Positions 973-27,027 of a DNA stretch of 64,000 nucleotides are shown here, one piece after another. The stretch lies in the NCBI RefSeq assembly GCF_005886805.2, contig NZ_CP045429.1, positions 2,698,501 to 2,762,500 of the forward strand. Reading direction: 5' to 3'. The notes below the pieces were generated by a model. That model did not search any database. It worked only from the letters and a program-made list of their open reading frames with translations, and had not been told where the DNA came from. How positions within the stretch are numbered: position 1 is the first letter of the stretch; every line of letters starts with the position of its first letter. The translations under genes were made by a program, and so were the position numbers. Source of the DNA: Pseudoalteromonas rubra. GTDB taxonomy: Bacteria; Pseudomonadota; Gammaproteobacteria; Enterobacterales; Alteromonadaceae.

Positions 973-3900
973 TTAACCCGCGTCTATAATTTGCATACTT
1001 TTTGAGACAATCGTCGGATCTTGTCCTTCAAACGGCGATGGAATGGTAAACGTAATCGTCAGATTACCCGTTGTCTTACTGTTTGCGGCCGTTTCCCGGG
1101 AGACTTTCACCACGGCTTTTTTGATCCCGTAGATATCATTGGCACTGACAATAGTATTGACTTCACTAATCGAAATTTCCCCATTATCTGCTGTGATACT
1201 GACAGTGGTTCCCGTAGGAAATGCATTACCGAACAGATCTGAATAATAGATCTCGACATCAGCTGACTCAACAATGGTTAAATCAACGACATTCAAATCA
1301 CAGTAATCCTCGTCTTCCGTCTGCTCCAGGCCACTGAAACCATTGATTGTGCCCGTACAGGCGGCACCGCCAATCAAGTTGCTGGCGATGACGAAGCGCG
1401 CGTACGGTACATCGCCTGCGATGATCAACTCCAGATCTCGGCGTACATCAACCAAATCACGCGTACAATGGCCACCTGTCAAAGCTTGTTCACCACATAG
1501 CAGGCCATTATATTTATTGTCTTCACTGGTGTAAGACAGATCGTTGTTGCCATCCAGGTAGGTCTCATTGTGACCGCCATCACTGAACCTGAACGTACAT
1601 TTATGTGCTTCAGCCGCATCATTACAATCTATGGCATCAAATGTGCCATTTTTGTTGTGATCTACAAAGGCTTCCGGTAAGTCAAACGCGCTGAAGAACT
1701 CACCTTCATCAAATATCCCGTTCGTTCTGCTAATATCTGCGCTGCTTTGCTTGTCTATAAAGCTCTCCTGACCTTTAGCAGTGGCCAATACAGTGATCCG
1801 TCCACCTCTGACCACAGGCAACTCAGCAGGTAACGTAACACCATCTACCACCTCGGTCATATCGTTACCATCTTGATCTTGCAAGAAATTACCGTCAGCA
1901 TCGGTATAACGATAGACAGATGGGAAACCATTGATACAGGGAACAGGTTGACCACCATATGTATCACAGACATCGCCAATGGTGTTACGCCAGGTATCTG
2001 TGTCGTTGTATGGGAACTCACCTTGCTTGCGCCATTGCACGGTACACACGCCATCCACAATCGCACACTGATATGAAGGAGAACCGCCCGTACCATCAAT
2101 ACTGCCGACCACGCCCGCTTCGGCTGTGACACTTGCCACCAGGTTATCACCGGTTAACTGGTTGAACTGGTCACCAAAATAAACAGAAATATTGGTCGTC
2201 ACACCTACGTAGTTTAATGCGTTTAACACTAGGTTATCAGCAGCAATATCAAAGCTATTCTGATCTGGTACACCCGACGATAATACGATACCTGAAGAGA
2301 CAGCATTGACCTGATCTGCAACGGGGATCAAGCGCAGCGTCAAGTTATCGTTCACATCTGGGCATCTCGGGTGAGTATTGTCTGCGGCACATTGATCTAT
2401 AACAGATTGCCAGCAAGTCGGATACTCATTCGTAGTGGCATAAGACGCAATAACCTCATCAGAGATGTAGCAGGCTTCAACCACGATGGCACCAGGCACA
2501 ACTCCGGATTGCACGGTTGTCTGCGCAAATCCTTCACTGTCTGTACTGCCTTTGTAGTTGGTAAGGTCAGCAGAGCCGGTCAAGTCCGCCAGTCTAAACT
2601 CAATTTGCTTCTGTTTTAACGGTCGGTCATCCGTATCCAGTAGCTTAAATTTCACCGTTGAGGTGGTGGGTGTGGCACCCAAGCCGGGCGGTAATGCAAT
2701 AAAGGCATTAGAGGCTTCAATAAACTGGATAGCTTGTACTGGCGCATCGTCAACCGTAAACACATAGCTTTCCGGGTCATTCACACCGCCGCCTGAAGTC
2801 ACCGTAACCACAATCGTATCATTGCCGCTACAACCCTGAGCACGGTATGTTGAAGATGCTTTACCGTCTTTAGAACGCACCTGTCCATCTATGGTTGCCA
2901 ACCCTTCATCAGCACAGGTCGAAGTAAACTCCACATCGACGGGCTGACCGTATATCGAATTATCCGGGTCTGCCTCATCAGTAAAAATCGTCGCGGTCAG
3001 AATAAAGCTGTCACCGGCGGCCAAACTGTCGCGATTACCACCGGAATCCAGTTCACTGCTTAAGCTTAAGAACAGATCCTGAATACCAACAGAGAAGTTT
3101 TTCGTATCGCTCTCATCAAGGTAACTCGCTGTAATCGTACCGGCACCACCTGAGTCACCCGGTTGCAGTTTCAGTAAGCCAACGCCTTGCAGATCAGTCA
3201 GAACTTGGCCAGAAGAAGGTAGAATTTGCCCCTTGTTGGTTTGGACACTAACAATCGCATTTTCAATGCCTTTATCCGGGTTCGCAGTCGGTGTCAATTT
3301 AACATACACTTCGGCCAATTCAGTTGAAGGGACATTAGTCACTTCATCACACTTTGCCAGATCTGCGTCCGTTATCCCTGTTGCATCTCGGTTACTATCC
3401 CAATCATCCTGACAATTGATCAGTAACCGGACAACCATCTTATACTCACCCTCATCAACAATCACTGCACCATCAGAGGCAAAGGTGACGCGAGGCGTTG
3501 AGAATGTCAGATACTCTGCATACACTTCACCGATCCCTGAAGTATTGGTCGCAAGTAGCTCAACACTCGCAAAGCCATTTTCATCAGTGACAGCACGGCC
3601 ACTTTGGGGGTTCATAGTAGCAACCGAATCTGTCGTAAACGTCACTAACTTTCCGGATAAGGGCAGACCATTTTCTATTAGCTGCACAGTGGCAATACCA
3701 TTATGATCCTCAGCGAGTTTATTTTCACCTGAAAGCTGAGTAGAAATGGCATCCCCGTCACTATCCAGAATGCTTACAATGGAAATATTTACCCCGCCGT
3801 CTCCGGCACTATTGAAATTAAAATTCTGAGTAACGATAACGCCATTATTGGCTTCATAACGTGCACTTACACGTCCTGCTCCTGAAATAGAATTGTCTAA

Positions 3901-5889
3901 TAACTGAATGGTTGCGATCCCCTCGTTATTAGTCAGTACCGAGCCTGACTCAGGGTCCAGGACACCAAATTCATTCACACTCAATTGAATATTTTGATTT
4001 TCCTGTACGTTACCATTGAACGTAAGACGTGCCTCAATGGTCAGCGGCATTTGCGCTGACAGTGAATTTGACTCATCACCCTGGGCGTTTTTACCGACCA
4101 GTGTCAATTGATAACCACTTGCACCGAAATTAGGATCGCCGCTTGAAAAATACCGGGCTGTTTTCGTTACGGCTGCGCCGCCGTCACCAAACGAAGCGGT
4201 GACCTCAGCCCAACCCTCCTCTTGATTCGGGATCAGGGTGACTCTTGCCTCACCGCTTGAGTTTGTATTAGATACGCCATCAGATGGAGAGGTTACCGCC
4301 TTTAAACCACCTGATACAGTGATCAATTCATTACTCAGCGGTGTGTCATCTTCGCGCAAGGTCACAACGACCTGACCTGGATTTGTCGCACTGAGCGGGT
4401 TGCCTTCATTAATAGCATTATCATTAAGGTCTAAAACAGTCACCGTCAACTGCACTCCAGCCCCTGCTGCAAGACCATTTGAGTAATAGCGGCCAGAACT
4501 CACTATTGTATTGGTCGTGTCTGTTTCTGTGTAGGTTACTGTAAACTGCTCCCATCCACGAGAATCGTTGACACTCAATGTCAGCTCAGCATCACCATTG
4601 CTGTCAGTCTCAGCGGTGCCATTGTCTGTGATATCAGCCAGCACCAGCTCACTCACAGTAACCAATTGCTTGATCAAAGGCTGACCATCTTTTTTCAAAT
4701 TAACTTTAAGGAATCCTTCCTTACCAAGACTCAAAGGATTCTCTTTGTTTATTTCTTCATTCTGGGCATCCTCGACACTCACGGTCAGCTGAATACCACC
4801 ATCGCCCGCACCAACATAGCTGGCAACCGTTCTTGCAGCCTCCTCACCCGCTAACATGTATGTCGCGGTAAAAGCATCGAGTTGTTGCGCAACCGTCGCT
4901 GTGCTCGTTGCAAAGAGCTGTATTTCAGCCTGACCAGTGGCATCCGTTCTGACTGATTCTGTTGGCTTGGCAAAGCGCGCACTTTCTTCCGCCTCAACCA
5001 GAATGTCGGCATTCGCAACAGGTTGTTCATTTAAAGTCAGCTGAATTTTTGCTGTTAATGGTGTCGCTAAAGAGAGATCTGAAGAGGTTTGATCATTTGC
5101 ATCAACCAGCTGAACGCTCAGATCATAGATTTCTTTGTCGTAAAAAGGGTTCCCCGCAGACTCGAAACCGATACGTGCATTAATATCTTCGTTGTATGTA
5201 ACCTGCACATAGCCGGCCCCTACTTCGTCTGTGGCTTGTACCAGTAGGCGGGCGGCACCATTTGCATCAGTTTGCACGTTAGAGTTACCATTGGTAACCA
5301 GCAGATTTTCACTATCCGCTTCTCTTGAAAACTCCAACACCTGACCACTCAGAGGTGTACCATTATCCGTGAGAACCGCAGTAACAGTGGCGATTTCTGA
5401 ACCCGCAATTGGATTGCTCGCATCGATTGCCAGTCCATCTGAACCAGTGATGGTCATCGCAATCTGAATACCACCATCACCATCAGCAGCATATGGCACC
5501 GAGCCTGTCACGGTATTTTCACCCACATCTGCGGTGGCAGAAATAGTACCTGCCCCCCCTGCCCGATTGGCAATAATGGTCACTTTGGCCTCACCGTTGC
5601 TATCAGTTAACTGAGAACTGACAGAAGCAAAGTCTGAAAACTCATCATTAGTGAAATTAACCAGGTTATTTGCAATGGGCGCACCATCATTGGTGAGCTT
5701 GGCCGTAATAGTAATAGGGTTGCTGATACTCAGGCTTCCCCCACTCGCGGAACTAGTAGTAAGTACCAATTCATAGTCGGTATTTGTACCGCCACCTCCT
5801 GAGGTGTCTTTTTCAATCGAACCACCGCCACCACAGGCGATCATCAGCAAGCTGAGCAAAGTAATACTAAACCAGCGCATCAGAGACAT
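973..5889 (-). CDS. Giant Ig-like (Big-1 type) repeat lipoprotein
   Basis: A 1638-residue envelope protein. It begins with a lipoprotein signal (hydrophobic run, then LMIAC with the lipidated Cys at residue 19) and a Gly/Ser-rich linker. The body is a chain of about nine roughly 100-residue Ig-like repeats, each ending in a T(D/N)xxGxAxxxL strand (TDSNGEAKVTI, TDANGAARLLV, TDENGFASVEL and others), the mark of invasin/intimin Big-1 domains. The last 400 residues differ: they hold several Cys pairs and an Asp-rich DHNKNGTFDAID stretch that could bind calcium. There is no LysM or autotransporter barrel, so this is not a true intimin. A role in surface adhesion is an inference. A good SD (AGGGAGA) precedes the ATG, and the gene is monocistronic. 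Confidence 0.85.
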   Translation of the reverse strand: MSLMRWFSITLLSLLMIACGGGGSIEKDTSGGGGTNTDYELVLTTSSASGGSLSISNPITITAKLTNDGAPIANNLVNFTNDEFSDFASVSSQLTDSNGEAKVTIIANRAGGAGTISATADVGENTVTGSVPYAADGDGGIQIAMTITGSDGLAIDASNPIAGSEIATVTAVLTDNGTPLSGQVLEFSREADSENLLVTNGNSNVQTDANGAARLLVQATDEVGAGYVQVTYNEDINARIGFESAGNPFYDKEIYDLSVQLVDANDQTSSDLSLATPLTAKIQLTLNEQPVANADILVEAEESARFAKPTESVRTDATGQAEIQLFATSTATVAQQLDAFTATYMLAGEEAARTVASYVGAGDGGIQLTVSVEDAQNEEINKENPLSLGKEGFLKVNLKKDGQPLIKQLVTVSELVLADITDNGTAETDSNGDAELTLSVNDSRGWEQFTVTYTETDTTNTIVSSGRYYSNGLAAGAGVQLTVTVLDLNDNAINEGNPLSATNPGQVVVTLREDDTPLSNELITVSGGLKAVTSPSDGVSNTNSSGEARVTLIPNQEEGWAEVTASFGDGGAAVTKTARYFSSGDPNFGASGYQLTLVGKNAQGDESNSLSAQMPLTIEARLTFNGNVQENQNIQLSVNEFGVLDPESGSVLTNNEGIATIQLLDNSISGAGRVSARYEANNGVIVTQNFNFNSAGDGGVNISIVSILDSDGDAISTQLSGENKLAEDHNGIATVQLIENGLPLSGKLVTFTTDSVATMNPQSGRAVTDENGFASVELLATNTSGIGEVYAEYLTFSTPRVTFASDGAVIVDEGEYKMVVRLLINCQDDWDSNRDATGITDADLAKCDEVTNVPSTELAEVYVKLTPTANPDKGIENAIVSVQTNKGQILPSSGQVLTDLQGVGLLKLQPGDSGGAGTITASYLDESDTKNFSVGIQDLFLSLSSELDSGGNRDSLAAGDSFILTATIFTDEADPDNSIYGQPVDVEFTSTCADEGLATIDGQVRSKDGKASSTYRAQGCSGNDTIVVTVTSGGGVNDPESYVFTVDDAPVQAIQFIEASNAFIALPPGLGATPTTSTVKFKLLDTDDRPLKQKQIEFRLADLTGSADLTNYKGSTDSEGFAQTTVQSGVVPGAIVVEACYISDEVIASYATTNEYPTCWQSVIDQCAADNTHPRCPDVNDNLTLRLIPVADQVNAVSSGIVLSSGVPDQNSFDIAADNLVLNALNYVGVTTNISVYFGDQFNQLTGDNLVASVTAEAGVVGSIDGTGGSPSYQCAIVDGVCTVQWRKQGEFPYNDTDTWRNTIGDVCDTYGGQPVPCINGFPSVYRYTDADGNFLQDQDGNDMTEVVDGVTLPAELPVVRGGRITVLATAKGQESFIDKQSSADISRTNGIFDEGEFFSAFDLPEAFVDHNKNGTFDAIDCNDAAEAHKCTFRFSDGGHNETYLDGNNDLSYTSEDNKYNGLLCGEQALTGGHCTRDLVDVRRDLELIIAGDVPYARFVIASNLIGGAACTGTINGFSGLEQTEDEDYCDLNVVDLTIVESADVEIYYSDLFGNAFPTGTTVSITADNGEISISEVNTIVSANDIYGIKKAVVKVSRETAANSKTTGNLTITFTIPSPFEGQDPTIVSKSMQIIDAG

Positions 5890-8515: not shown

Positions 8516-9031
8516 ATGGAGAACATTTATCGTTTCAGCGTGAAACTACTTAACGGCGAGACGCTGGCACTCAGATCCTTACAAGGCAGACCCGTGTTGA
8601 TCGTCAACATTGCCAGTAAATGTAGCTTTGCACCGCAGCTGAGCGCATTAGAAAAGTTATACAAAAAGTACCACCCTATGGGATTAGAGATTATTGCCTT
8701 TCCCTGCCACCAGTTTGGCCGCAATGAGCCACTGGAAAACGAAATGCTCAGGGAGTTTTACCAGTCGCACTTCAATCTGAGCTTTCACATTTCAGAAAAA
8801 ATACTGGTGAACGGTCCGGATGCTCACCCACTCTTTAATTACCTCAAGGTAAATACACGGGGGATCGCGCAAAACCGCGCTATTAAATGGAATTTTACTA
8901 AGTTTTTAGTAAACTCAGAGGGCGTTTTATTGTCCCGCTATGCGCCCAGGACAAAGCCCGAAACCTTAAAATCGATTATAGAGAGTCAAGTGTCCAATGA
9001 GAGTCGCCCTATTCAGTTCGCAAAAGTATGA
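8516..9031 (+). CDS. Glutathione peroxidase-like protein with altered catalytic tetrad
   Basis: A 171-residue thioredoxin-fold peroxidase of the GPx/BtuE family. The peroxidatic Cys is C36 in NIASKCSF, and the Trp-Asn pair is W125-N126 in IKWNFTKF. The motif normally reading PCNQFGxQEP is here PCHQFGRNEP, so the third tetrad residue, Gln, is replaced by Asn (N70). Activity may be changed. The family reduces hydroperoxides with thioredoxin or glutathione. The gene overlaps the following dehydrogenase by 35 bp, suggesting co-transcription. Confidence 0.85.
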   Translation: MENIYRFSVKLLNGETLALRSLQGRPVLIVNIASKCSFAPQLSALEKLYKKYHPMGLEIIAFPCHQFGRNEPLENEMLREFYQSHFNLSFHISEKILVNGPDAHPLFNYLKVNTRGIAQNRAIKWNFTKFLVNSEGVLLSRYAPRTKPETLKSIIESQVSNESRPIQFAKV

Positions 9032-9974
9032 GCTGCCATTTTTTGAGCATGCACTTACCCAGTTTCCTGATATTGAGTTTGAATTTTTTGAGCAAGCACT
9101 AAACGACAAGACTGTTGCACTGGCGCAGGGGTTCGATGCCATCTGCGTGTTTGTGAACGATCAGGTTGATGCCAATGTGTTAGCCGAACTGGCTGAGTTA
9201 GGTGTTCAAAGTATTGCACTACGCTGTGCAGGCTTTAACAATGTCGACATAGAGGCAGCGCACGCCTTGGGGATCAAAGTAGTACGTGTCCCTGCTTACA
9301 GTCCTGAAGCCGTAGCCGAGCATTGTATTGCCCTGATGCTGACACTGAGCCGTAAAACCCATAAAGCCTACAACCGGGTACGTGAAGATAATTTTGACCT
9401 CAACGGCTTACTGGGTTTTAACCTGCACAACAAAACCGTCGGTATCATCGGCTGTGGTAAAATTGGTCAGGCTCTGGTGGCCATTCTCAACGGCTTTGGC
9501 GCGCATGTGCTGGTCTACGATCCGAATATCGGAGAAGGCTCTTATACGCAAGTATCATTAGATATGTTGCTTGAGCAAAGCGACATCATTACCCTGCATT
9601 GCCCACTCACAGATGCCACGCATCACATGATCGATGACGCTGCGTTTGACAAAATGAAGCAAGGAGTAATGCTGATCAACACCAGCCGCGGTGCTCTGGT
9701 AGACAGCAAGGCCTGCATCCGCGCGCTGAAATCCAGAAAACTCGGCTACCTTGGGCTGGATGTGTATGAGCAAGAATCTGAACTGTTCTTTAAAAACCGC
9801 AGTGATGAAGTGATTCAGGACGATGTTTTTATGCGCCTGGCCAGCTTTCAGAATGTGCTCATTACCGGACACCAGGGGTTTTTCACCAAAGAAGCCTTAA
9901 CCGAAATCGCCCACACCACAGTGACTAACCTAAACGCCATTCGCACTGGGCAGACGCTGGAAAATCAGGTTTGA
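8997..9974 (+). CDS. ldhA: D-lactate dehydrogenase (fermentative, LdhA type)
   Basis: A 325-residue NAD-dependent 2-hydroxyacid dehydrogenase that reduces pyruvate to D-lactate. It shows the ALRCAGFNNVD substrate loop, the Rossmann motif GIIGCGKIGQAL near residue 150, the catalytic Arg in NTSRGALVDS and the catalytic His in TGHQGFFT near the C-terminus. Length and the C-terminal TGHQGF motif fit E. coli LdhA rather than serA- or ghrA-type enzymes. The ATG lies inside the preceding peroxidase gene, so the two are probably one transcript. Confidence 0.88.
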   Translation: MRVALFSSQKYELPFFEHALTQFPDIEFEFFEQALNDKTVALAQGFDAICVFVNDQVDANVLAELAELGVQSIALRCAGFNNVDIEAAHALGIKVVRVPAYSPEAVAEHCIALMLTLSRKTHKAYNRVREDNFDLNGLLGFNLHNKTVGIIGCGKIGQALVAILNGFGAHVLVYDPNIGEGSYTQVSLDMLLEQSDIITLHCPLTDATHHMIDDAAFDKMKQGVMLINTSRGALVDSKACIRALKSRKLGYLGLDVYEQESELFFKNRSDEVIQDDVFMRLASFQNVLITGHQGFFTKEALTEIAHTTVTNLNAIRTGQTLENQV

Positions 9975-9989
9975 ATATTTCATTCTTCT

Positions 9990-10030
9990 CCACACCAGCT
10001 CTTCTGCGCAGTTAAATAGAGTTGGTGTGG
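9990..10030. terminator. Long hairpin between convergent genes (possible terminator)
   Basis: A 12-bp stem with one G-U pair (9990-10001 with 10019-10030, CCACACCAGCTC arm) and a 17-base loop lies between ldhA and rdrB. Neither side has a clear U tract, so classical intrinsic termination is uncertain. Confidence 0.45.
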
Positions 10031-10046
10031 TGATAATAAAACAGCG

Positions 10047-12611
10047 TTACGTCAGCGCCGTTTTGTCAGCCTCACTGAACCAGTCCAGGTGATTTTGTCT
10101 GAACAGCTCCAAACCTCTTTGCCTTATTCGCTCTACCCAGTCTTCGGCAACCATTGCACCTACCTCATAATCATGTACCGCGACCTGCTCAAGGATCCGA
10201 TGCTCGTTGTCTATGGTAGTTGGCATAAGTGCCGCGTCATCAGTATTGACGCAAACTGCTACCGGGCCTTTTCGTAACCCAAACTGATTAAATTTTTCTC
10301 CCTTTTTTAACCAGTTTTTATTCGGTGGATCCCAACGATAGATAGGGTGCTCTTTGTAATGCTCAAACCGGCCAATAAAGATGTTAGACGTTGGACAGGC
10401 TTCGATGACGATACCTAAAGCGGCATAGTGTTCCATCTGCCAATCCTGAATGGCTTCGTAGAGCGTCAGTTCTGCCGCAGACACGGAGTCAAAGTACCGA
10501 CCATGACTAAAGCCAAAGGTTTGTGCACTTTGCTGAGCGGAACAGTCTACGCTTAACAGCGTACCTCTTCTTTGGCTAAATTCAGGGTCTCGGTTTGCAA
10601 ACAGATACTTCTCCCAAAGCTGTATATGTTTTGTATGGCCTGCCACTTTTGATTGTGCACCAAAGTCCATAACCCAGCCGCTCAATCTCGGGTCAAACTG
10701 TCCAACTACAGGCAATTTAAGTGCCTGCTGCGTATCTGATTTGAGAATGATGGGACAATTGCGCCTGAGCAACCAGGCATCGTATAAACGCTTGGGTGGT
10801 TGGGCTTCGCCATACAGGAACTCGCTCCAATAGTGGATTTTCTCCTGCAACAGAGGCAACACACCGACCATCTCAGGAACAGATTGAATGACCGACAGGG
10901 CCTTTTGATGGCACCAGACTAAGTTATCTAAATGCTCACCCACGGACAGATAGGCCCTGTCTTGCCTGCTGGCCCACTTTTTAGGACACACGCCCATGGC
11001 CAGTGCATGACCTAATCGGTCGCCCACACCATAATCACAAAATACGACTGCTTCATCTATTGCTCGCATACCAGATAAAAGATGACTAAAGTCCTCGCCA
11101 GCATGGACTGTAATAAATGGTTTAGGTAAGCGATTAAACTTTACACCCTGAGTCGGATATTTACTATCACGCAGCACCCGCAGTGCTGGCGCAAAAACTT
11201 CCACCGGTAACTCGTTTTCATTTCCAGCCACGTCATAACCACGGATAGCTTTGCGCAGATCCAGGTATGCAAACTTCGCAAGCCCTGATATCGTCTCACA
11301 CTCTTGCTCAGAAAAGGTAACCGAATGCGTAAAGTCCTGTAATAGTTCCGTCTGCTGCCTGAGGGCATGACGACGTGCTTCCTGAAGTTTGTCTTCTCGG
11401 CTGCCCGAACGCGTAAAGTGCAACACAAAGTGCGTATTTTCGGCAAACGAGTTCAGATACAACTGCTTTAGCGAGGCAAAAAATGCATCGGGCTTTATTT
11501 TTTGATTTTTCCCTTTTAGTAAAGTGTTGGGTGTTGTCCTGAACTCTCGCATCACCCCCTTATCCAGGTCAGCTTCGAGTGATTCATTCACAACACCAGC
11601 GCCAAGCGTATGGCTTTCGCCTCGCTGATATCGAGCGCCAAATCTAGACACCTCAACAAACTGAGATAAACCGACTCCCGACACCAACATATAATTTCGC
11701 AAAATATTTGTCAGACGCGCGAGCAAAAGCAAAGATCCTGACTCGATGCGTGACTCCACCAGAAGTCCAGTTAAGTACAACAACCAGCGCTTTGCCGAGG
11801 GTTGAGACTCACAAGTGGCTTTGGCAATAAATTGCTGTGGCGCGGTCTCTGCTTCGTAACACTTAATCGCATCCAGCGTTTTGTGCTCAAACTTATCGCC
11901 CGATGTTGTGTTGTCACGATACTGAATGGTTTTGTCATTGGTAAATACACCATGAGCGAGCGCGTCGCCAATCAGGCAGCACTGAGTAGCAATATCTTGT
12001 TTATTTAAGTAACCACTTTCATACACAGTGTATTCAGGTCTGACAGGCCAGTGAAACTTGTTTTTAATTTCAGCGCCATACAGGCAAAAGCTCAGTAAGC
12101 TTGGGCCAAGATAACCATGCCCACCCAGATGCACGTGATTGTCAGCAAACGACTTACTCATTCGCCTTGGCAGTGCAAATGGGCACTGAAATGACTCAAT
12201 ACAATGCGCTAATTCAGACACCGAGAACTCAAAATTGACGTGCAGATCCGCATAGGCCAGGGCAATGACCCAGCTGCCGTCAAGCAACGACAGTAAAGCT
12301 AGCCAGTCACTCAAGCGTTGCGGTTTTACAACAAAACAGTTGCCCTGCCAGTCCAGATACTCGTTTGCTAGTGACGACAACAAAGGCCGTATCGCGGTAT
12401 TGGTATCGGATAATTGATACAAGCTTATCATTGCCTGTACATCGTCCGTGCGCAGCTTGCGATGCACATAGGGCTGGTAATCCAGGATTGCTTTAGTAAG
12501 CAGCCCTTTACTGTGAGTACGTGACTTTGCCGGCAGGATATCTGACAACACCAATCTGTCGGAGGATAAAAACGCCGCCAGCACCGCAGTGCTATCAGTT
12601 ACCTTGAACAT
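10047..12611 (-). CDS. rdrB: RADAR system divergent adenosine deaminase RdrB
   Basis: An 854-residue protein with the full metal-site set of the adenosine deaminase amidohydrolase fold: H159-V-H161 in NHVHLGGHG, HAGE at 503-506, DRLGH with H535, EACPTSN at 737-743 and NTDD at 789-792. It is more than twice the length of a housekeeping adenosine deaminase (about 330-360 residues), with an N-terminal extension and large insertions, as in RdrB. In RADAR, RdrB assembles into a large shell and acts with RdrA during phage infection; RNA editing and ATP/dATP deamination have both been reported as its output. Its start overlaps the rdrA stop by 17 bp, implying translational coupling. The match is by motif, size and context. 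Confidence 0.85.
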   Translation of the reverse strand: MFKVTDSTAVLAAFLSSDRLVLSDILPAKSRTHSKGLLTKAILDYQPYVHRKLRTDDVQAMISLYQLSDTNTAIRPLLSSLANEYLDWQGNCFVVKPQRLSDWLALLSLLDGSWVIALAYADLHVNFEFSVSELAHCIESFQCPFALPRRMSKSFADNHVHLGGHGYLGPSLLSFCLYGAEIKNKFHWPVRPEYTVYESGYLNKQDIATQCCLIGDALAHGVFTNDKTIQYRDNTTSGDKFEHKTLDAIKCYEAETAPQQFIAKATCESQPSAKRWLLYLTGLLVESRIESGSLLLLARLTNILRNYMLVSGVGLSQFVEVSRFGARYQRGESHTLGAGVVNESLEADLDKGVMREFRTTPNTLLKGKNQKIKPDAFFASLKQLYLNSFAENTHFVLHFTRSGSREDKLQEARRHALRQQTELLQDFTHSVTFSEQECETISGLAKFAYLDLRKAIRGYDVAGNENELPVEVFAPALRVLRDSKYPTQGVKFNRLPKPFITVHAGEDFSHLLSGMRAIDEAVVFCDYGVGDRLGHALAMGVCPKKWASRQDRAYLSVGEHLDNLVWCHQKALSVIQSVPEMVGVLPLLQEKIHYWSEFLYGEAQPPKRLYDAWLLRRNCPIILKSDTQQALKLPVVGQFDPRLSGWVMDFGAQSKVAGHTKHIQLWEKYLFANRDPEFSQRRGTLLSVDCSAQQSAQTFGFSHGRYFDSVSAAELTLYEAIQDWQMEHYAALGIVIEACPTSNIFIGRFEHYKEHPIYRWDPPNKNWLKKGEKFNQFGLRKGPVAVCVNTDDAALMPTTIDNEHRILEQVAVHDYEVGAMVAEDWVERIRQRGLELFRQNHLDWFSEADKTALT

Positions 12612-15312
12612 CGCCCAGATCCAGCTTTAGAACTGCTTTGATCATGTTTTTCAGTCTCGTATCAAGACTGAGGAAGTCTCTTCTATTAATAAAATCAGGC
12701 TCCATTTTTTCAATAAGTATCTTTGCTTTCTGTACCTGTTCGCGCAATACTTCTGATTCCCGCGGGTTTTCATCATCGACCAATATCTTGTAAAGTGAGT
12801 TATATATTTTATCAAAAGTTTTAACCCTACGATCGACCTTAGTCCCTAAAAAGTTCATACACATAGTTAAACCTGCTTGCTCAGATTGAGAGAGACCAGA
12901 ATTCATTTTCGATAGTTCATCCAACGAGTTCATATAACTCATCGATACAATAATCGGGTGGGAGTTTAATCGTAATAATGGGTTAGAAATGTCACTAGTA
13001 ATATTAAATATTGGATGAGAGTTGACCGCATCATGTAATTTCATAATATAATTCGACGTTTCGGTATCTTTATGGCGAGCTTGGCTTGATGAAAGCTCCT
13101 CTTTAAGTATTGCTAGATTACGCTTGTAAACCCTTTCATATTTAAATATTTCTCGTTTGCTTCGCACGGTCTCACTTTTTGCGCCAACAAGAACATTTGC
13201 GTAGACTGCTTGCCCTTGTATACCGCAACGAATAAGAGCATTCAACACATTATATTTGAACCTTAACACCATGTCAGATAGGTGTTCATAACCAAACATG
13301 TTATGGCTAAAATTAGCTTTAATCACATTTAGCGCTGTAAAAGTACTGTTGAAGCAGTATGATAGAAGCGGTATGAGCCGAGGAATGTAACATTGCTCAA
13401 ACAAGTCGCAGTGCTCTTTCCGCCATATCTGAATTTTGTCACACAGAGCGAGGGTACTAAAATACAAATTACTATCGTCGTAACTATCATGCTCTGTATC
13501 TTCCTCACCTGTTAACGCAATCTTAGTATCTGTGAGAGCGGGTAAGCTATAGAACGGCTTTCTAGATAATATTTGATAGATATCTGATAACAGCGCTGAT
13601 TCATTTTTATTAGTCAAAATTGAATAAATAAGTAGCTCAAAAGATCGACTAAAAAAGACAAATTTATAGCTGTTGCTAAGCTGGGAGTAAAAACCAGATT
13701 CTGTGTAAACATCAAGCATGATGTCTTCTATATAACATTGTCCTTTTAATTCCCAACCAGAGTCCTGTGCGACCTTTACTAATGAATCGTTTGAGATCGA
13801 AATGGGGTCTGACTTTTCGTTTGCTGTATTTAAAGTTATATATAGTTTATCAACCAGAAATTCTAGCGGTGGCATTGCTTTTAAGCTCTTTCTGTCGCCA
13901 GTGCCAAGTGCCGCCTGCAATAAGCTTGCGTTATTAATTTTCTCCCCGCCCTGTTTTGCTAGCTCCTTTAATCTGCTCTCTTGCTCTTCCAGCACATGAT
14001 ACTTTGCCCAAGGGTAAAGATTCGCATCTGTTTGTTGCACCAGATTAAATGCCAGAATTTTGCGTATATCAAAGACCGCTTCGCTGTCGTGTAACAAGGA
14101 CAGAGCAGACTCGGCAAAGACCAGTGCTTCACCGTTTTTCTTCTGCATGGCCCAGTTTTTAAAATTGTTATAAAGTACAATCTGCTTGCTGATATCCGCA
14201 TCCTTTTCAGACTGCTCAAGTGATGTTGGCGGCAAAGAGCGAACCAGCTGGGTTAGCTCCCGGGCCGACTCTGGCATAGTCCAGTTTCTTCTGGCATCGC
14301 GGTTGCGACAAAGAAAGTAAAACTGATTGAACACGCTTTCCTGATAATCCAGATAAGAAATGCTGCGCTTGCTATCCTGACCATATTTGAGCTGCATTTT
14401 ATTGAGCAGTCGTTCAATCGAGAACAGATTGATTCGCATTGGCGAAGGAAAGACCTTGGTCAGATAAGCCATAGTTAAATGTTCACTCAGCTCCTTGCCT
14501 TTATCCGTCAGCTTTGCGTCCCGGCAGCGATTGTCGTAGGCTTTATCGTCAAAGTGCTTCTGAGTCATATGCTCATACAGCTTAATTTCACCACTGACAA
14601 TCGGGATCAAATAAGGGCAGCCCAGAAAACGCCTGACGTCGTCGACCACTTCAAAAGCGCGCTCCATTGCCATATCCACATCGTCGATTGAAACCACAAT
14701 GGCCTTACAGCCTAATATTTTTATGGCTGATTCAACAAACAAGTGAAAGTAGCTTTCCAGCTGAATACCCGAGCTATATTTCAGGATTTTATCTATCCCG
14801 ATTGCGCCGTTAAATTCACAGGTTTTACCCATCGCATCTGCCAGCTTTTTTAATCGGCGGTGGAAGTCATCGCGCTCATTTCTAGATTGCTCATCACAGC
14901 AATTAGAGCGCTCAAGTTTGTTGTTAACTGCCTGATATATTTGCGCCACGATGACATTTGCAAAGGAGTCTTGTGCCATCAACATGGTTGGATCTATCAC
15001 GTCAAGAAACAACAGGGCATCTTTCTTATCTGTGTTTTCACTGCGCCACATTGCTTCGCAGTTGCGCAGAAACACCGTTTTTCCCGAGCCCCTCGGGCTG
15101 GTAACCAGAATCGCATTATGCGATAACCAGGTTTCCCTGGGGTTAACTGCCCTGCCTCTTCCATACTGCTCTGCGTCATTTAAAATCGCGGTTAAGTTAC
15201 TAACCAGCTGTTGCCTGGCATATACCTGCCAAAGCTCTCCACTGCCAGTTGACGAACTAAAATCATCATTGAATTCAGCCCGGTTTAAATCAAACACATA
15301 ACCTTCACTCAT
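12595..15312 (-). CDS. rdrA: RADAR system P-loop ATPase RdrA
   Basis: A 905-residue protein with an N-terminal STAND/AAA-type ATPase domain: Walker A SPRGSGKT at 72-79, Walker B AIVVSIDDVD around 204-213, and a sensor-like IPIVSGE at about 236-242. The remaining 650 residues are helical with no familiar domain, as expected for RdrA, which forms a ring and partners RdrB. It follows the membrane-protein gene with a 2-bp gap and a clear SD (AAGGAAG). Its middle part is visibly more AT-rich than the flanking housekeeping genes, consistent with horizontal transfer. Alone it would be just an AAA ATPase; the adjacent deaminase is what identifies it. Confidence 0.83.
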   Translation of the reverse strand: MSEGYVFDLNRAEFNDDFSSSTGSGELWQVYARQQLVSNLTAILNDAEQYGRGRAVNPRETWLSHNAILVTSPRGSGKTVFLRNCEAMWRSENTDKKDALLFLDVIDPTMLMAQDSFANVIVAQIYQAVNNKLERSNCCDEQSRNERDDFHRRLKKLADAMGKTCEFNGAIGIDKILKYSSGIQLESYFHLFVESAIKILGCKAIVVSIDDVDMAMERAFEVVDDVRRFLGCPYLIPIVSGEIKLYEHMTQKHFDDKAYDNRCRDAKLTDKGKELSEHLTMAYLTKVFPSPMRINLFSIERLLNKMQLKYGQDSKRSISYLDYQESVFNQFYFLCRNRDARRNWTMPESARELTQLVRSLPPTSLEQSEKDADISKQIVLYNNFKNWAMQKKNGEALVFAESALSLLHDSEAVFDIRKILAFNLVQQTDANLYPWAKYHVLEEQESRLKELAKQGGEKINNASLLQAALGTGDRKSLKAMPPLEFLVDKLYITLNTANEKSDPISISNDSLVKVAQDSGWELKGQCYIEDIMLDVYTESGFYSQLSNSYKFVFFSRSFELLIYSILTNKNESALLSDIYQILSRKPFYSLPALTDTKIALTGEEDTEHDSYDDSNLYFSTLALCDKIQIWRKEHCDLFEQCYIPRLIPLLSYCFNSTFTALNVIKANFSHNMFGYEHLSDMVLRFKYNVLNALIRCGIQGQAVYANVLVGAKSETVRSKREIFKYERVYKRNLAILKEELSSSQARHKDTETSNYIMKLHDAVNSHPIFNITSDISNPLLRLNSHPIIVSMSYMNSLDELSKMNSGLSQSEQAGLTMCMNFLGTKVDRRVKTFDKIYNSLYKILVDDENPRESEVLREQVQKAKILIEKMEPDFINRRDFLSLDTRLKNMIKAVLKLDLGDVQGN

Positions 15313-15314
15313 TA

Positions 15315-16103
15315 CTACTTCCTTAACCCTTTAATGATATTAAATGCGCTGTCATGGACTTTGTAATGGTCACCCATGATCTCTTTATCCAGTCGCGCTA
15401 CATTGTCTTTTTCCAGTTGGAATAAACTCGCAAACGCGTCTGCCTGCACGCGCTCCAGCTCAAACCTGCCACAGTTAAAGCTCGCTATTTCATACTCACG
15501 CCGCAATCGTTTAAGGTTATGAATCATGATTTGATTTCGCGTCGTTGCAGAGGTATATCCGAACAGCCGATTAACCATATAAGTGCCAACATAGACAATC
15601 ACGTTTATTATTCCTGCGACCGCGACCATTTGCTGTGTAAAGCAAAATAGGAACAATGACAAAAACAAAACAACTTGCAAAAAAGGTAAGGTATGAAGCA
15701 AATTCTCTTTACGATATGCAAATTTAGGGTTGTATCTTGGGCCTAAAATTATTGCTAAGCAAAGGTGGCGCAGGTGCAACTTTTGACGTGTACACACTAT
15801 CAATGCGACGAGAAATACGGGCAGGCCTAACACAATGGCCATGTTGAAATCATAACCATCATGGAGTGTCTGTATCGCAAACAGGTTGAGCTTTGGGAAT
15901 ACCGTATTCAGCCCAAAATAGCTCAAAAATACAAAAGCAAGAATGGCCGAGTTTGCACTGATAGTGCGGGTCAACTTGCTAAGTTTTTGATATTTTAGAT
16001 ATGCGGGCTGATAAATGTTATTGATAAACCAGTTAATTTCACTAATCACCGGATCCTGAGGGCTTTTTGGGGGAAGCCTCCCGCTGACTACACAGTTTTC
16101 CAT
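15315..16103 (-). CDS. RADAR-associated multi-pass membrane protein (RdrC/RdrD-like accessory)
   Basis: A 262-residue protein with about four hydrophobic helices: near 45-60 (AILAFVFLSYFGL), 80-100 (AIVLGLPVFLVALIVC), 135-155 (VVLFLSLFLFCF) and 160-180. A charged cytoplasmic C-terminal helix region follows. RADAR operons often carry an accessory membrane protein, either a SLATT-domain protein or a Csx27-like protein. Sequence alone does not decide which this is. I chose the ATG at 16103 because AAGGA lies just upstream. The longer reading frame starting at 16145 would run through an inverted repeat and has no SD. First gene of the operon. Confidence 0.7.
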   Translation of the reverse strand: MENCVVSGRLPPKSPQDPVISEINWFINNIYQPAYLKYQKLSKLTRTISANSAILAFVFLSYFGLNTVFPKLNLFAIQTLHDGYDFNMAIVLGLPVFLVALIVCTRQKLHLRHLCLAIILGPRYNPKFAYRKENLLHTLPFLQVVLFLSLFLFCFTQQMVAVAGIINVIVYVGTYMVNRLFGYTSATTRNQIMIHNLKRLRREYEIASFNCGRFELERVQADAFASLFQLEKDNVARLDKEIMGDHYKVHDSAFNIIKGLRK

Positions 16104-16128
16104 CTTATCCTTGTTCCTATGAATACAC

Positions 16129-16161
16129 ATCAATTTGATAAACAAGATTCATCAAATTGAT
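16129..16161. promoter_or_regulatory. 11-bp perfect inverted repeat upstream of the RADAR operon
   Basis: ATCAATTTGAT at 16129-16139 and its exact reverse complement at 16151-16161 are separated by 11 bases, so the arm centres are about two helical turns apart. The repeat begins 26 bp upstream of the chosen start of the first RADAR gene. Symmetric arms at that spacing are typical of a dimeric repressor operator. No regulator gene is adjacent. Confidence 0.5.
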
Positions 16162-16294
16162 ACATTAACGTCACAAGATATACAGATTGAAGCGGCTTAG
16201 CAACTAATCGCGATCAAAGTTGCATTTGTTTCTAGCGTGCGGTTGAATTAGTCACTACTCGATTGAATAAAACACTAACCCTATGTGTTTAAAT

Positions 16295-16320
16295 ACAAAA
16301 AAGCCCGGCAATACCGGGCT
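16295..16320 (-). terminator. Rho-independent terminator of the NSS transporter gene
   Basis: On the minus strand an AGCCCGG/CCGGGCT stem (16314-16320 with 16302-16308) is followed by a run of six T. It lies 24 bp after the stop codon. Confidence 0.9.
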
Positions 16321-16343: not shown

Positions 16344-17669
16344 TTACTTAAAGAACGCTACATTCGCAAAGACGGCAGTCATCAGCACCGGACAAACAAA
16401 GCGCACATACTGGGCAAACCAGTACATTTTTCCACTACACTCCAGAGCAAGCTGGTTACCACGACGCCATATCCAACCGACAGTAATAAAGTAGAACAGG
16501 CCCATCAATGGCAGCTGATATTGGGTGAATACCTGTATGACCAGACCAAATAACCAATCAAAATTCATGATAATGGTGCCTGAACAGACGAACAGCACCA
16601 GAGTCACCATCCAGGTTGCCTGTGAGCGTTTAAAGCCATGGTTTTCTACCAGAAATGACACCGGAATTTCGGTGGATGAAATGGTTGAAGTCAGCGACGC
16701 TATAGACATCAGCACAAAAAAAGTCAACCCGACGAATAAACCAATCTCGCCCATGGTTGCAAATAGCTCAGGCAGAATCGCAAAGATAAGCCTACCCTCG
16801 CCAACCAGTTTACCATTTTGGAAAACTTCAACCCCATTATTCTGAGCGATAAACAGAGCCGGGATGATCAATAATCCGGCCAGAAACGCCACTCCGGTAT
16901 CCAGCATTGCCACGCTGAAAGTCAGTTTAGGCAGGTTCTCATTTGGTTTCAGATAAGAGCCATAAATCATCATGCAGCCTACGCCCAGGGACAAAGAAAA
17001 GAATGCCTGCCCCATTGCTGCAATGATTAATTCAGGATCACCAATTTTGCTGAAGTCTGGCACCAGATAGGCTTTGAAGCCTGCCGCAGCGCCTTCTAAC
17101 GTGCCCATATAAGCAATCAGCGCAATAAGTAACAGCAACAACAGTGGCATTAAACGGCGAGACCAGGCCTCAATACCGGATTTCACCCCCTGCAAAATAA
17201 TCGCAGCGGTCAACAGCAGCATCAAAGGGGTAAAGATAAAGTTCCGTAAGGTTGAATCGCCCGACAAAAATTGGCTGGCGGCATCCCAGCCAGTCAAACG
17301 TGCGAGCGGCTCAAGAGAATGCGCCAACATCCAGCCAGCAACAATAGAATAGAAACTGAGCATAACAATAGCACCGGCAAGGCCGATGTAACCAGCAGAC
17401 GCACCGATTTTAGGCTGCTTCTCCTGCCACGCCTGCTTGAGCGCTTTCACCGGGTTGGCTTGCGCCTGATGACCCAGATACAACTCCGTATACAAAGCAG
17501 GTAATGCCAGTAAGAATATGACGATAAAGTAGACCAGCAAAAACGCGCCACCACCGTGGTTCGCTGCCTGAGTGGGAAATCCCCAAATATTACCAAGTCC
17601 GACTGCCGCACCGGCTGCCGCTAACACAAAGCCCAGACGGCTTTGAAAACCTTCACGCACTTGAGCCAT
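16344..17669 (-). CDS. Sodium-dependent transporter, NSS/SNF family
   Basis: A 441-residue inner-membrane symporter of the neurotransmitter:sodium symporter family (LeuT fold). The N-terminal signature GFVLAAAGAAVGLGNIWGFP (about residues 12-31) forms helix 1 with the unwound Na+/substrate site. About eleven membrane helices follow, including the helix 6 region FFSLSLGVGCMM and the helix 8 region TSTISSTEIP. Bacterial members import amino acids; the substrate is not evident here. It stands alone, with its own terminator and a roughly 180-bp upstream gap. Confidence 0.92.
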   Translation of the reverse strand: MAQVREGFQSRLGFVLAAAGAAVGLGNIWGFPTQAANHGGGAFLLVYFIVIFLLALPALYTELYLGHQAQANPVKALKQAWQEKQPKIGASAGYIGLAGAIVMLSFYSIVAGWMLAHSLEPLARLTGWDAASQFLSGDSTLRNFIFTPLMLLLTAAIILQGVKSGIEAWSRRLMPLLLLLLIALIAYMGTLEGAAAGFKAYLVPDFSKIGDPELIIAAMGQAFFSLSLGVGCMMIYGSYLKPNENLPKLTFSVAMLDTGVAFLAGLLIIPALFIAQNNGVEVFQNGKLVGEGRLIFAILPELFATMGEIGLFVGLTFFVLMSIASLTSTISSTEIPVSFLVENHGFKRSQATWMVTLVLFVCSGTIIMNFDWLFGLVIQVFTQYQLPLMGLFYFITVGWIWRRGNQLALECSGKMYWFAQYVRFVCPVLMTAVFANVAFFK

Positions 17670-21600: not shown

Positions 21601-22857
21601 ATGATCCCAGCCAAAAAAGTATTAAATACGCTGAATGAACACTGGGGCGTCCTGGAGCTGCTTTTTAAACGCTTTAAGATGGCCGATTTCAGCCTAAAAG
21701 ATGTGCAAAACATCATCAAATTGAAAAACCCAAACTGGTCAAGTGAACGTATTTATAGAGAAACCAATCGGTTACTAAACCAGGAAATAATTATTCCTCT
21801 GGCCAAATCATCGCAACTCGAAATTAACCGAGCCGTGGCCGACTTCGCTAGTTTTTTATTGCAGGAAGAACACCTTGGCCTGGCTGAAGAAATCACAGTA
21901 TTAGTTAAAGATCTGCAACGACTGGGAGAGCGCTTGGCCCAGGCAGGCGATGAAGGTGATCACAGTGAGCTGCGTCGTTTTAGTCGTATTATGGATGAGC
22001 GCGTGCGCAAAATCGTCAAGCTGTATCATCATAATGAAAGTGCCATCATGAACCTGGTGGAACAGGCCAAATCAGATCAAGGTAATTTGTCTTTGCAAAA
22101 ACGCTATCGCGCCGTGATTGAAGCATTTGATGAATATATCGAGCCAATGCTGGAAATGGTCGATATCCACGGGCCCTTCCAAGCCTGCTTTACGACTATA
22201 GAGCATCAGATCAGTGAACAGATCGCGCAAATCGAACAACTTGGCCGTGGTGCACAGGACAAACGAATGCTCGAGCAATTGCGCACCCGGATCCTCGATA
22301 TGCACCTGATCGGGCGTGAGAGCTTAGGTAAAAGTGCCGATATGCTGATGCCACTGCGCGAAGAACTCAGACGCAACACACTCATTACCCGCCAGGCGGC
22401 AAAAGTCCTGGGCTTGATCCGTAAAAATGGCGTTGATCGTATGCTCAGCCCGGTGCAGCCCTACTTTGTCTCAGACATACAGCGCTTCAGCCTGGGTCAG
22501 CAACGTCATATGGTGGCTTATATGGCCAGCCTTAGCGAGTTCGAACACGAGGAATATCAATTGCCGGATCAGCAGGATGTGCCTGCATATCAAAGCCCAA
22601 ATATTCCGGATTATTCGGACGTGCGTAAATCGTTTAAAGGGTCCGGTAAAAAGCGTACCGCCTTGCTTGGCTTTTTGAGTGATCAATATCCGGCACTGGA
22701 AGCGGATGAAATGCTGTTCCTGTACCAAAAGCTAATCAGCGATCCCGAACTCGATATCGCCCAGGACGAGCAACAACAGACGATGCAAATCGCCAATACC
22801 CGCATTCGACTTTATCCGTTCAGTGCAACGGACAAGCAATCAGATAACCAGAATTAG
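21601..22857 (+). CDS. mksF: MksF, kleisin-like subunit of MksBEF condensin
   Basis: A 418-residue protein, almost entirely helical, in first place of an F-E-B condensin operon. The first 80 residues look like a winged-helix domain (WSSERIYRETNRLLNQEII). Helical segments and a C-terminal winged-helix region follow, as in MukF/MksF. MksF bridges the heads of the MksB dimer and recruits MksE. Related genes in Wadjet systems are called JetA. The identification rests on size, order and the downstream SMC gene; primary sequence similarity in this family is weak. Confidence 0.75.
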   Translation: MIPAKKVLNTLNEHWGVLELLFKRFKMADFSLKDVQNIIKLKNPNWSSERIYRETNRLLNQEIIIPLAKSSQLEINRAVADFASFLLQEEHLGLAEEITVLVKDLQRLGERLAQAGDEGDHSELRRFSRIMDERVRKIVKLYHHNESAIMNLVEQAKSDQGNLSLQKRYRAVIEAFDEYIEPMLEMVDIHGPFQACFTTIEHQISEQIAQIEQLGRGAQDKRMLEQLRTRILDMHLIGRESLGKSADMLMPLREELRRNTLITRQAAKVLGLIRKNGVDRMLSPVQPYFVSDIQRFSLGQQRHMVAYMASLSEFEHEEYQLPDQQDVPAYQSPNIPDYSDVRKSFKGSGKKRTALLGFLSDQYPALEADEMLFLYQKLISDPELDIAQDEQQQTMQIANTRIRLYPFSATDKQSDNQN

Positions 22858-22865
22858 TAAACACC

Positions 22866-23417
22866 ATGACACACATTAATCTAGACGAACTCAGCCAGTT
22901 ACAGGCGATCAATAAGAAATTGGTCAGTGGCTATCATATCAGCGAGCAGGACACGACACAGTGGCAAGAGCTGGATCAACACATAGAGTCTTATCAGGCA
23001 CTGTTCAGCGCCCTTGGCCATGACCTGCAACACGACAGTCGTGGTTTCTATTATCTGGCCAGCGATGAAAGCACACCTAACATGGGGAAGATCTCCCGTG
23101 CCATTGCCCTGACTGTCTTTATCCTGATCGAGCACTTTGCCAACCAAGGTAAAGACCCGCTACGTGCTTTGTTTGACGAAGTACTGGATTTAGAGCTAAT
23201 GCAGACTCTGGTTCAACTTAATAAACATCTGTTTGATCAGCTTGAGATTTTCTCAGGTTCCGATCTTCGCAAAGACGTGTGCCTGCGTATGGTTCGCCTG
23301 GGCCTGGCTCGCGAAGTAGAGCAAGGTTTCTCGCTGCTGGCACCGATATATCGCTATATCGACGCGTTGATGGAAGTGAACGAAGATAATTACGACACAC
23401 TTGAGGAAGAAGTATGA
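22866..23417 (+). CDS. mksE: MksE, KITE-like subunit of MksBEF condensin
   Basis: A 183-residue protein of the MukE/MksE/JetB type (DUF4194-like), with tandem winged-helix character: DSRGFYYLASDE, the helix around IALTVFILIEHFANQGKDP, and the C-terminal LGLAREVEQGFSLLAPIYRYID. MksE binds the kleisin MksF and DNA. It starts 8 bp after mksF and overlaps the mksB start by 4 bp (ATGA), so the three proteins are translationally coupled. Confidence 0.78.
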   Translation: MTHINLDELSQLQAINKKLVSGYHISEQDTTQWQELDQHIESYQALFSALGHDLQHDSRGFYYLASDESTPNMGKISRAIALTVFILIEHFANQGKDPLRALFDEVLDLELMQTLVQLNKHLFDQLEIFSGSDLRKDVCLRMVRLGLAREVEQGFSLLAPIYRYIDALMEVNEDNYDTLEEEV

Positions 23418-26445: not shown

Positions 26446-27027
26446 ATGCTGAACCAATTTAAAAAATACCTTGTCAGCACCAGGACCTATGCCGTCGTGG
26501 CAAGTTTACTGATGCTCAGTGCCTGTGGCACCACCCCGGACTGGGACTACGACAAGTCTGTTGAATTTACAAACTACGAAACCTATGCCTGGTCAGCAGA
26601 AGCCAGCTTACAAGCACGCCCGCAAAATTATCAGATCAACGGGTTAATGGAAAAACGCATTCGTAATGCCATTACTGAACAAATGGCAAATCAGGGATTC
26701 AAGCTGGTTGATGCCACAGTGGCTGATATACTGATCAACTATCATGTCGCAGTTGATAAAAAACTGGAAGTGGATACTTTTAAAGTCAGCTATGGTGCGC
26801 GTTGGAGCTACTGGGGTTGGGGCGTAGACCACCATACGACAGCAAGAGAGTACAAGGTAGGCACACTTGTGGTAGACATTATTGACCGCACTTCTAATCA
26901 GCTGGTCTGGCGCGGTGCCAAAGAAAGCAGAATACGTGCTAAACAAACGCCGAAGCAACGTACCGAGTCTATTAACAAAACCGTTACTGAAATCCTGGCT
27001 AACTTCCCACCTGAAATCCAGCACTAA
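26446..27027 (+). CDS. DUF4136 domain lipoprotein
   Basis: A 193-residue predicted lipoprotein. The signal peptide ends in LMLSAC, with the lipidated Cys at about residue 27. The mature part follows the DUF4136 pattern: FTNYETYAW near the start, IRNAITEQMANQGFKLVDATVADILINYHVAV in the middle, GTLVVDIIDRTSNQLVWRG and a C-terminal VTEILANFPP. The function of the family is unknown; an envelope location is predicted. A strong SD (AAGGAG) lies about 7 bases before the ATG. Monocistronic. Confidence 0.88.
   Translation: MLNQFKKYLVSTRTYAVVASLLMLSACGTTPDWDYDKSVEFTNYETYAWSAEASLQARPQNYQINGLMEKRIRNAITEQMANQGFKLVDATVADILINYHVAVDKKLEVDTFKVSYGARWSYWGWGVDHHTTAREYKVGTLVVDIIDRTSNQLVWRGAKESRIRAKQTPKQRTESINKTVTEILANFPPEIQH

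Follow-up and report, generated by a model that had tools for sequence, protein, structure and literature searches.

RADAR systems and their variants

In RADAR anti-phage systems, the adenosine deaminase RdrB converts ATP and dATP to ITP and dITP, a conversion that is enhanced by RdrA, and the trigger of the response is described as unclear (PMC9994260). Besides the systems with solved structures (PDB 8fnw, 8fnt, and 8hr7), a SLATT-associated subtype has been described (PMC7699616), with SLATT domains predicted to act as pore-forming effectors (PMC7159879), and a further membrane or accessory variant (PMC11676413) combines RdrA and RdrB with a Csx27 gene (PMC7699616). Other systems, such as those of two Pseudoalteromonas genomes (G007 and G099), carry the membrane protein RdrD (model NF041745). 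Here we describe a RADAR operon of Pseudoalteromonas rubra that lies in a 64,000-nucleotide stretch of contig NZ_CP045429.1 (positions 2,698,501 to 2,762,500; the whole stretch is called the window below), taken from a 5.94-Mb assembly of two contigs, and that encodes a membrane protein, an RdrA ATPase, and an RdrB deaminase (Table 1).

The operon shares homologous RdrA and RdrB proteins with the structurally solved systems, including the RdrB active-site residues and the Walker core of RdrA, but it carries an extra membrane gene at its head, and the sequences are far apart, with only parts of them aligning (phmmer). The systems of G007 and G099 have the same RdrA, RdrB, and four-stretch membrane protein, the last connected to the window protein by profile comparison through intermediates; their RdrD, however, follows rdrB and passes its model, whereas the window gene precedes rdrA and its product scores 11.6 bits (E 0.18) against a cut-off of 230. 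Unlike in the Csx27-associated systems, no Csx27 match is found among the matches listed here, from libraries whose content of a Csx27 model was unchecked, and some members of the window family weakly match the SLATT and RdrD models. The RADAR system of a sister species (G051) has the same insertion site and gene order, and its RdrB is 96% identical, but the C-terminal half of its RdrA is different and the protein has 937 rather than 905 residues. Plain RADAR membership is of an already known kind; what sets this variant apart is its head-placed, RdrD-like gene and the apparently exchanged C-terminal half of its RdrA.

Table 1. Features of the RADAR locus and its surroundings, in window coordinates
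Feature	Position	Strand	Basis
rdrB	10047..12611	-	854-aa RADAR adenosine deaminase; NF041744, PADLOC, PDB 8fnw, invariant metal and catalytic residues
rdrA	12595..15312	-	905-aa AAA+ ATPase; NF041743, PADLOC, PDB 8fnt, Walker A/B core
RdrD-like (SLATT-type) membrane gene, operon head	15315..16103	-	262 aa, four hydrophobic stretches; profile chain
3' part of rdrA (C-terminal half), probably replaced relative to the sister species	12595..13950, upper edge approximate	-	DNA identity and synonymous sites
Cassette between two core genes	9975..16293	.	Absent at the site in seven close relatives
Left flank, 2-hydroxyacid dehydrogenase, outside the system	8997..9974	+	Pfam 2-Hacid_dh_C; 102/108 genus genomes at E 1e-120
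Right flank, sodium symporter, outside the system	16344..17669	-	Pfam SNF; 108/108 genus genomes at E 1e-120
Terminator-like hairpin downstream of the symporter gene, close to the cassette's right edge	16302..16320	-	8-pair stem and T run, consensus scan

Identity of the operon and proposed mechanism

An earlier note, made from the sequence alone, had described the locus as a RADAR operon in which a 905-residue P-loop ATPase, an 854-residue adenosine deaminase with a full metal site, and a four-helix membrane protein are encoded in one tight minus-strand unit. The open reading frame (ORF) list bears out this layout: the order is membrane gene, rdrA, and rdrB (spanning 16103-10047), all three frames are open, the membrane gene ends 2 bp before rdrA, and rdrA and rdrB are adjacent on the same strand with an overlap of 17 bp. 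A sigma-70 scan performed at chance level (14 found and 11.7 expected, sd 3.4), and therefore no promoter is named.

RdrB matches model NF041744 with 918.6 bits (cut-off 800), is called as RdrB by PADLOC (E 2.1e-240), and has a solved RADAR protein, 8fnw, as its best PDB match (phmmer, E 6.1e-17). Residues H159, H161, H503, E506, H535, D791, and D792 are invariant across 28 aligned sequences. H503, E506, and H535 align with PDB chain residues 498, 501, and 530, which are the active-site residues of E. coli RdrB (PMC9994260), while H159 and H161 lie outside the PDB alignment and are assigned by motif and family alignment only. The histidine tetrad and the catalytic glutamate are present, as the earlier reading of a full metal site had it, and RdrB is predicted to be an active deaminase. 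Among plasmid records RdrB has seven matches, two of them covering at least 80% of the query and all below 60% identity; it has no match among phage records.

RdrA matches NF041743 with 609.7 bits (cut-off 600), the whole model (1-742) being aligned to residues 9-768, so that the curated model ends at residue 768 of 905. PADLOC likewise calls RdrA (E 9.6e-171), and the best PDB match is again a solved RADAR protein (8fnt, E 1.8e-26). The RGSGKT sequence (74-79) and D210/D211, the core of both Walker motifs, are kept. Two points count against an unqualified assignment: the model is cleared by only 9.7 bits, and the ATPase activity is not certain because of two unusual residues, serine at the first P-loop position (S72, found in 3 of 70 RdrA-like proteins, with glycine in 65) and glutamate at the sensor-1 position (E242, in 4 of 70, with aspartate in 55).

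With RdrA and RdrB both over the curated RADAR cut-offs and the six housekeeping adenosine deaminase equivalog models listed giving RdrB at most 44.5 bits (cut-offs 216 to 530), neither of the contrary outcomes named in advance, a lack of RADAR profile matches or a deaminase that groups with the housekeeping purine deaminases, was obtained. The claim that the operon has the known RADAR composition stands for RdrA and RdrB and has to be modified for the membrane protein, which stays under the RdrD cut-off and is encoded at the head. The nearest named proteins and loci belong to Pseudoalteromonas, the RdrB of P. rubra S2471 being 96% identical. The operon is a true RADAR system of a marine Pseudoalteromonas. 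The sequences establish the identity of the genes, the catalytic residues, the operon, the empty sites of relatives, a link of the membrane protein to RdrD, and a replaced C-terminal half of RdrA, whereas an anti-phage activity is predicted.

The system most likely works like known RADAR, by phage-triggered deamination of ATP to ITP. We infer the defence activity, the chemistry, the sensing by the tail, and any membrane role by homology, as follows. RdrA would assemble into an AAA+ ring, detect infection, most likely through its C-terminal half, dock on the RdrB shell, and switch on the deamination of ATP and dATP to ITP and dITP, which would keep the phage from replicating but cost the cell. 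The product of the RdrD-like gene would probably be a membrane-bound partner or a pore-type effector of the same response, its role here being a guess. The cassette would have passed between species, and recombination would have replaced RdrA's C-terminal half. That this is a three-gene RADAR of the membrane-protein (SLATT/RdrD-like) type working in this way seems to us very probable.

The variable RdrA tail and its proposed role in phage sensing

The helical C-terminus of RdrA has been put forward, as an untested proposal, as the phage sensor, and the orientation of the last four helices differs between two RdrA structures (PMC9994260). Variability of this part was measured in 173 of 177 RdrA proteins, those shorter than 760 aa being left out. 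Across 37 non-overlapping pairs that share 85% identity or more over residues 1-400, the median identity was 94% in the first 400 residues, 88% in the middle, and 77% in the last 180; the tail fell at least 20 points under the N-terminus in 15 pairs and below 60% in 13. RdrB behaves differently: with pairs picked by identity over the first 400 residues, identity was lowest in the last fifth for 32 of 36 RdrA pairs versus 2 of 26 RdrB pairs (below 60% in 11 versus 0), and with pairs picked on the whole length (at least 75%), for 26 of 36 versus 2 of 49 (below 60% in 5 versus 0).

Several features of the data weigh against this pattern. The protein pool was gathered mostly by similarity to the window RdrA; each protein enters only one pair, but common descent keeps the pairs from being independent; and in 6 of the 37 pairs the final 180 residues are at least 95% identical. 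With pairs picked by identity over the last 400 residues, identity was lowest in the last fifth for 8 of 16 RdrA and 2 of 42 RdrB pairs and below 60% in none of either, as this choice removes swapped tails.

One RdrA from Desulfovibrio gilichinskyi (P0244), in which the model match covers 14-783, carries pentapeptide repeats at about 940-1030, near the position of the variable tail.

The variability could mean that the tail is a poorly constrained appendage and says nothing about sensing, since relaxed constraint likewise yields variability; conservation of RdrA is low away from the ATPase site, and distant members of the family have little in common beyond the ATPase domain (PMC9994260). The tails of close alleles nevertheless remain alignable, at about 29-35% between alleles over roughly 173-204 columns, the tail forms an ordered helical lobe in two RdrA structures (PMC9994260), and the Desulfovibrio protein bears its pentapeptide repeats past the RdrA model, which together make a mere appendage rather unlikely, though it deserves to be kept in view. 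The replaced C-terminal half fits the tail-sensor proposal of PMC9994260. RADAR may be a modular receptor, in which a conserved chassis of RdrA ATPase, RdrB, and RdrD carries a C-terminal half of RdrA, above all its last 150-200 residues, that is swapped by recombination to change the phage signal that is recognised, comparable to the variable domains of NLR-type receptors; our confidence in the modular receptor is evenly divided.

The head-placed membrane protein

The membrane ORF (15315-16145, minus strand) encodes 276 aa from a TTG codon; starting from the ATG at 16103, whose methionine is invariant in 12 aligned relatives, the product has 262 aa. Four hydrophobic stretches (47-65, 86-104, 144-162, and 163-181; Kyte-Doolittle), the last of them weak (1.32), agree with the four helices read earlier. 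The protein passes no family cut-off in any library scanned, and it has no match on plasmids and no confirmed one on viral contigs. A search of 5.8 billion proteins gave eleven matches at E <=1e-3. Since it fails the RdrD model, its kinship to RdrD rests on a chain of intermediates. In profile–profile comparison, the window family matches 14 intermediates at 5.6e-32, and these match six tail-placed proteins at 4.2e-16, two of which are RdrD over the NF041745 cut-off (only those two were checked against the model). The link from the intermediates to RdrD is the more telling one, because a match to the window family was what brought the intermediates into the comparison. Four reversed-profile controls gave 1.3e-3 to 0.2, and the similarity to RdrD/SLATT exceeds what chance among membrane proteins yields. 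Tail-placed RdrD also has four hydrophobic stretches, and its D-x-x-x-G-x-T is, by eye, the counterpart of an N-x-x-x-G-x-T motif whose N, G, and T are invariant in 23 aligned head-type proteins. The third gene product looks like a very divergent RdrD-like relative; as it fails the NF041745 cut-off, it is not placed in that family.

The evidence on the other side is that the direct comparison of the window family with tail-placed RdrD gives 1.1e-6 with a probability of only 91%, that the selection of the 14 intermediates favours the first link of the chain, and that unrelated Pfam and NCBIfam families match the 12 family members about as weakly as the RdrD/SLATT models do: NF041745 matches 5 of 12 at E up to 10 (best 1.4e-4), Halogen_Hydrol 5 of 12 (best 3.9e-4), and MSC_0624 2 of 12 (best 1.2e-3).

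RADAR is frequent in Pseudoalteromonas, where 18 of 108 genomes have an RdrB that exceeds the cut-off, versus 3 of 390 other genomes sampled in the order (394 minus 4 Pseudoalteromonas genomes in that sample; Fisher p 2.5e-10). The window membrane-family profile matches 18 of the 108, all of them among the 21 with an RdrB match, and RdrB is over the cut-off in 15 of those 18. The RdrD model NF041745 matches six of the 108, two over the cut-off, and the other four are also found by the window profile. Only 2 of the 20 RADAR genomes of the genus in which a membrane partner was found have RdrD over the curated cut-off, which means that the membrane partner of RADAR goes unrecognised in Pseudoalteromonas.

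The gene lies upstream of rdrA on the same contig in 16 of the 21 RdrB genomes, on another contig in one (G073), and downstream of rdrB in three (G007, G099, and G013); none was found in G079. An upstream gene also occurs in loci of Shewanella (L004), Photobacterium (L010), and Thalassomonas (L023). On a quick RdrB tree, built without a mixture model, containing long branches (L144, L051, and others), and covering 57 of 87 rows (left out were L026, RdrB under 800 aa, and loci L053-L079), head versus tail placement amounts to two changes among the rows that have the gene.

RADAR is given in PMC9994260 as a two-protein system whose activity comes from RdrA and RdrB, and the membrane gene could accordingly be a hitchhiker or an independent module beside a core that works as rdrAB alone, as the G079 locus without an adjoining membrane gene would suggest. 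The association argues otherwise: all 18 genus genomes that match the membrane family also match RdrB, the three strong membrane-family matches (E <1e-50) among the 394 order genomes are all accompanied by RdrB over the cut-off, and a mere 2 bp separate the gene from rdrA. Less favourable to a functional link, three of the 21 RdrB matches are under the cut-off (G095, G001, and G013, all carrying the membrane family), and three weak profile matches (G494, G391, and G127; E 3.6e-4 to 9e-4) have no RdrB match; the latter are treated as chance, two of them sitting in longer frames of 490 and 444 aa. A hitchhiking gene is, on balance, unlikely, and a membrane partner of RADAR is the reading that we retain.

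Some loci of the genus are unusual in other ways. A membrane domain fused to RdrA in G079, considered from a hydropathy count, was rejected, as one of the four peaks corresponds to the N-terminus and two others fall within the ATPase region (by eye). The rdrA genes of L143 (G001) and L125 (G007) read as two separate frames and may be broken genes or assembly errors, and L144 (G013) is a very divergent RADAR (RdrB 172.8 bits) whose tail-placed membrane gene matches the head-type family.

Probable exchange of the RdrA C-terminal half

The same cassette occupies the same site in the sister species G051, and the two copies differ in a sharply uneven way. Compared in 200-bp steps, DNA identity is 92-98% across rdrB, returns abruptly from the low values of rdrA to 96-98% at the rdrA/rdrB junction, falls to 54-80% over 12601-14000 (from about 13950 to the end of rdrA), and is 90-98% over 14001-15400, with 84-98% across the membrane gene together with the 5' part of rdrA. 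The proportion of synonymous sites that differ is 0.135 in rdrB, 0.23 in the membrane gene, and 0.06-0.29 in rdrA residues 1-450, versus 0.54 in residues 451-525, 0.69-0.84 in residues 526-900, and 0.43-0.64 in five flanking genes. As synonymous divergence (dS), rdrB gives 0.15, the membrane gene 0.27, and rdrA residues 1-450 0.06-0.37, the C-terminal half of rdrA is saturated, and the five flanking genes give 0.63-1.41. From these values we infer an exchange of the cassette later than the split of the two species. The best reading of the identity steps and the synonymous divergence, which is saturated in the C-terminal half of RdrA and low in the rest of the cassette, is that recombination replaced this half. 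The G+C content of rdrA is 0.415, below all 610 sliding 2.7-kb windows.

A second case is visible at the protein level: the RdrA proteins of McH1-42 and PPB1 (P0133 and P0134) are 98.6% identical over residues 1-440 and 18-66% identical in 50-residue steps beyond residue 450, and altogether four close systems carry three different C-terminal halves. Evidence from synonymous rates comes from two pairs with DNA, the window and G051 and the pair L045/L066; a third pair, L031/L047, is not deciding, as both of its genes diverge strongly at synonymous sites. In L045/L066 (Undibacterium rugosum and U. crateris), RdrB is 95% identical (dS 0.17) and synonymous divergence in rdrA is high nearly throughout, which looks like a replacement of almost the whole gene.

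Immune sensors often diversify by mutation, and the low identity of the C-terminal half might reflect fast drift or positive selection by point mutation, a view to which the stepwise rather than single fall of identity inside the half and the intermediate value of residues 451-525 (0.54) lend some weight against recombination. Selection on amino acids alone, however, would leave synonymous divergence unraised, whereas it is 0.69-0.84 from residue 526 on, versus 0.06-0.29 in residues 1-450 and 0.135 in rdrB, and the divergent block ends at the rdrA/rdrB junction; point mutation is therefore improbable as the source of the block. Finally, a decayed or inactive copy, which the unusual S72 and E242 might indicate, is very improbable given three open frames, a complete metal site, strong constraint on rdrA residues 1-450 relative to G051 (pN, the nonsynonymous proportion, 0.006-0.014; pS, the synonymous one, 0.06-0.29), and the same operon at the same site in the sister species.

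If recombination is the source, closely related operons whose main difference lies in the C-terminal half of RdrA are natural chimeras, and the question of what RADAR senses therefore becomes a direct comparison of natural alleles. The available parts of PMC9994260 make no mention of swaps between near-identical RADAR systems, and we do not claim the swap as unreported. The PPB1 protein (P0134, from Pseudoalteromonas sp. PPB1) is annotated as a hypothetical protein and scores 599.8 bits, 0.2 under the cut-off of 600, although over the first 440 residues it shares 96-99% identity with RdrA proteins that exceed the cut-off. RADAR can thus escape annotation when the C-terminal half of its RdrA is changed.

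Insertion site and neighbouring genes

The cassette of about 6.3 kb is absent from the site in seven close relatives (G106, G093, G007, G053, G052, G094, and G061), in which similarity stops at 9974-9980 and resumes at 16285-16295 and the flank genes are separated by 64-226 bp; one of them, G007, is empty here and has a tail-type RADAR elsewhere. A hairpin similar to that after the symporter gene is visible in the empty sites of relatives. Of the 102 genomes that have both flank genes, 54 have them side by side and no more than 250 bp apart (hand count). The cassette contains no other ORF longer than 116 aa, and hence no mobility gene of its own is visible. The empty site of G094 (L150) has a junction of 226 bp, versus 64-81 bp in the six others, with extra bases at the cassette position. 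A defence hotspot was considered and is not claimed, as 14 chosen inter-flank stretches elsewhere hold transposase-like, unknown, or ordinary genes (judged by eye, without a family scan).

Elsewhere in the window, a condensin locus of the MksBEF type is suggested by three linked plus-strand ORFs at 21601-26191 (418, 183, and 925 aa), of which the second is MksE (Pfam PF21980) and the third has a weak similarity to JetC (3.8e-6). The next ORF (26446-27027) belongs to DUF4136 and is not a nuclease. On the other side, five kilobases from the cassette, 973-5889 encodes a protein of 1638 aa in which the bacterial Ig-like domain Big_1 is repeated.

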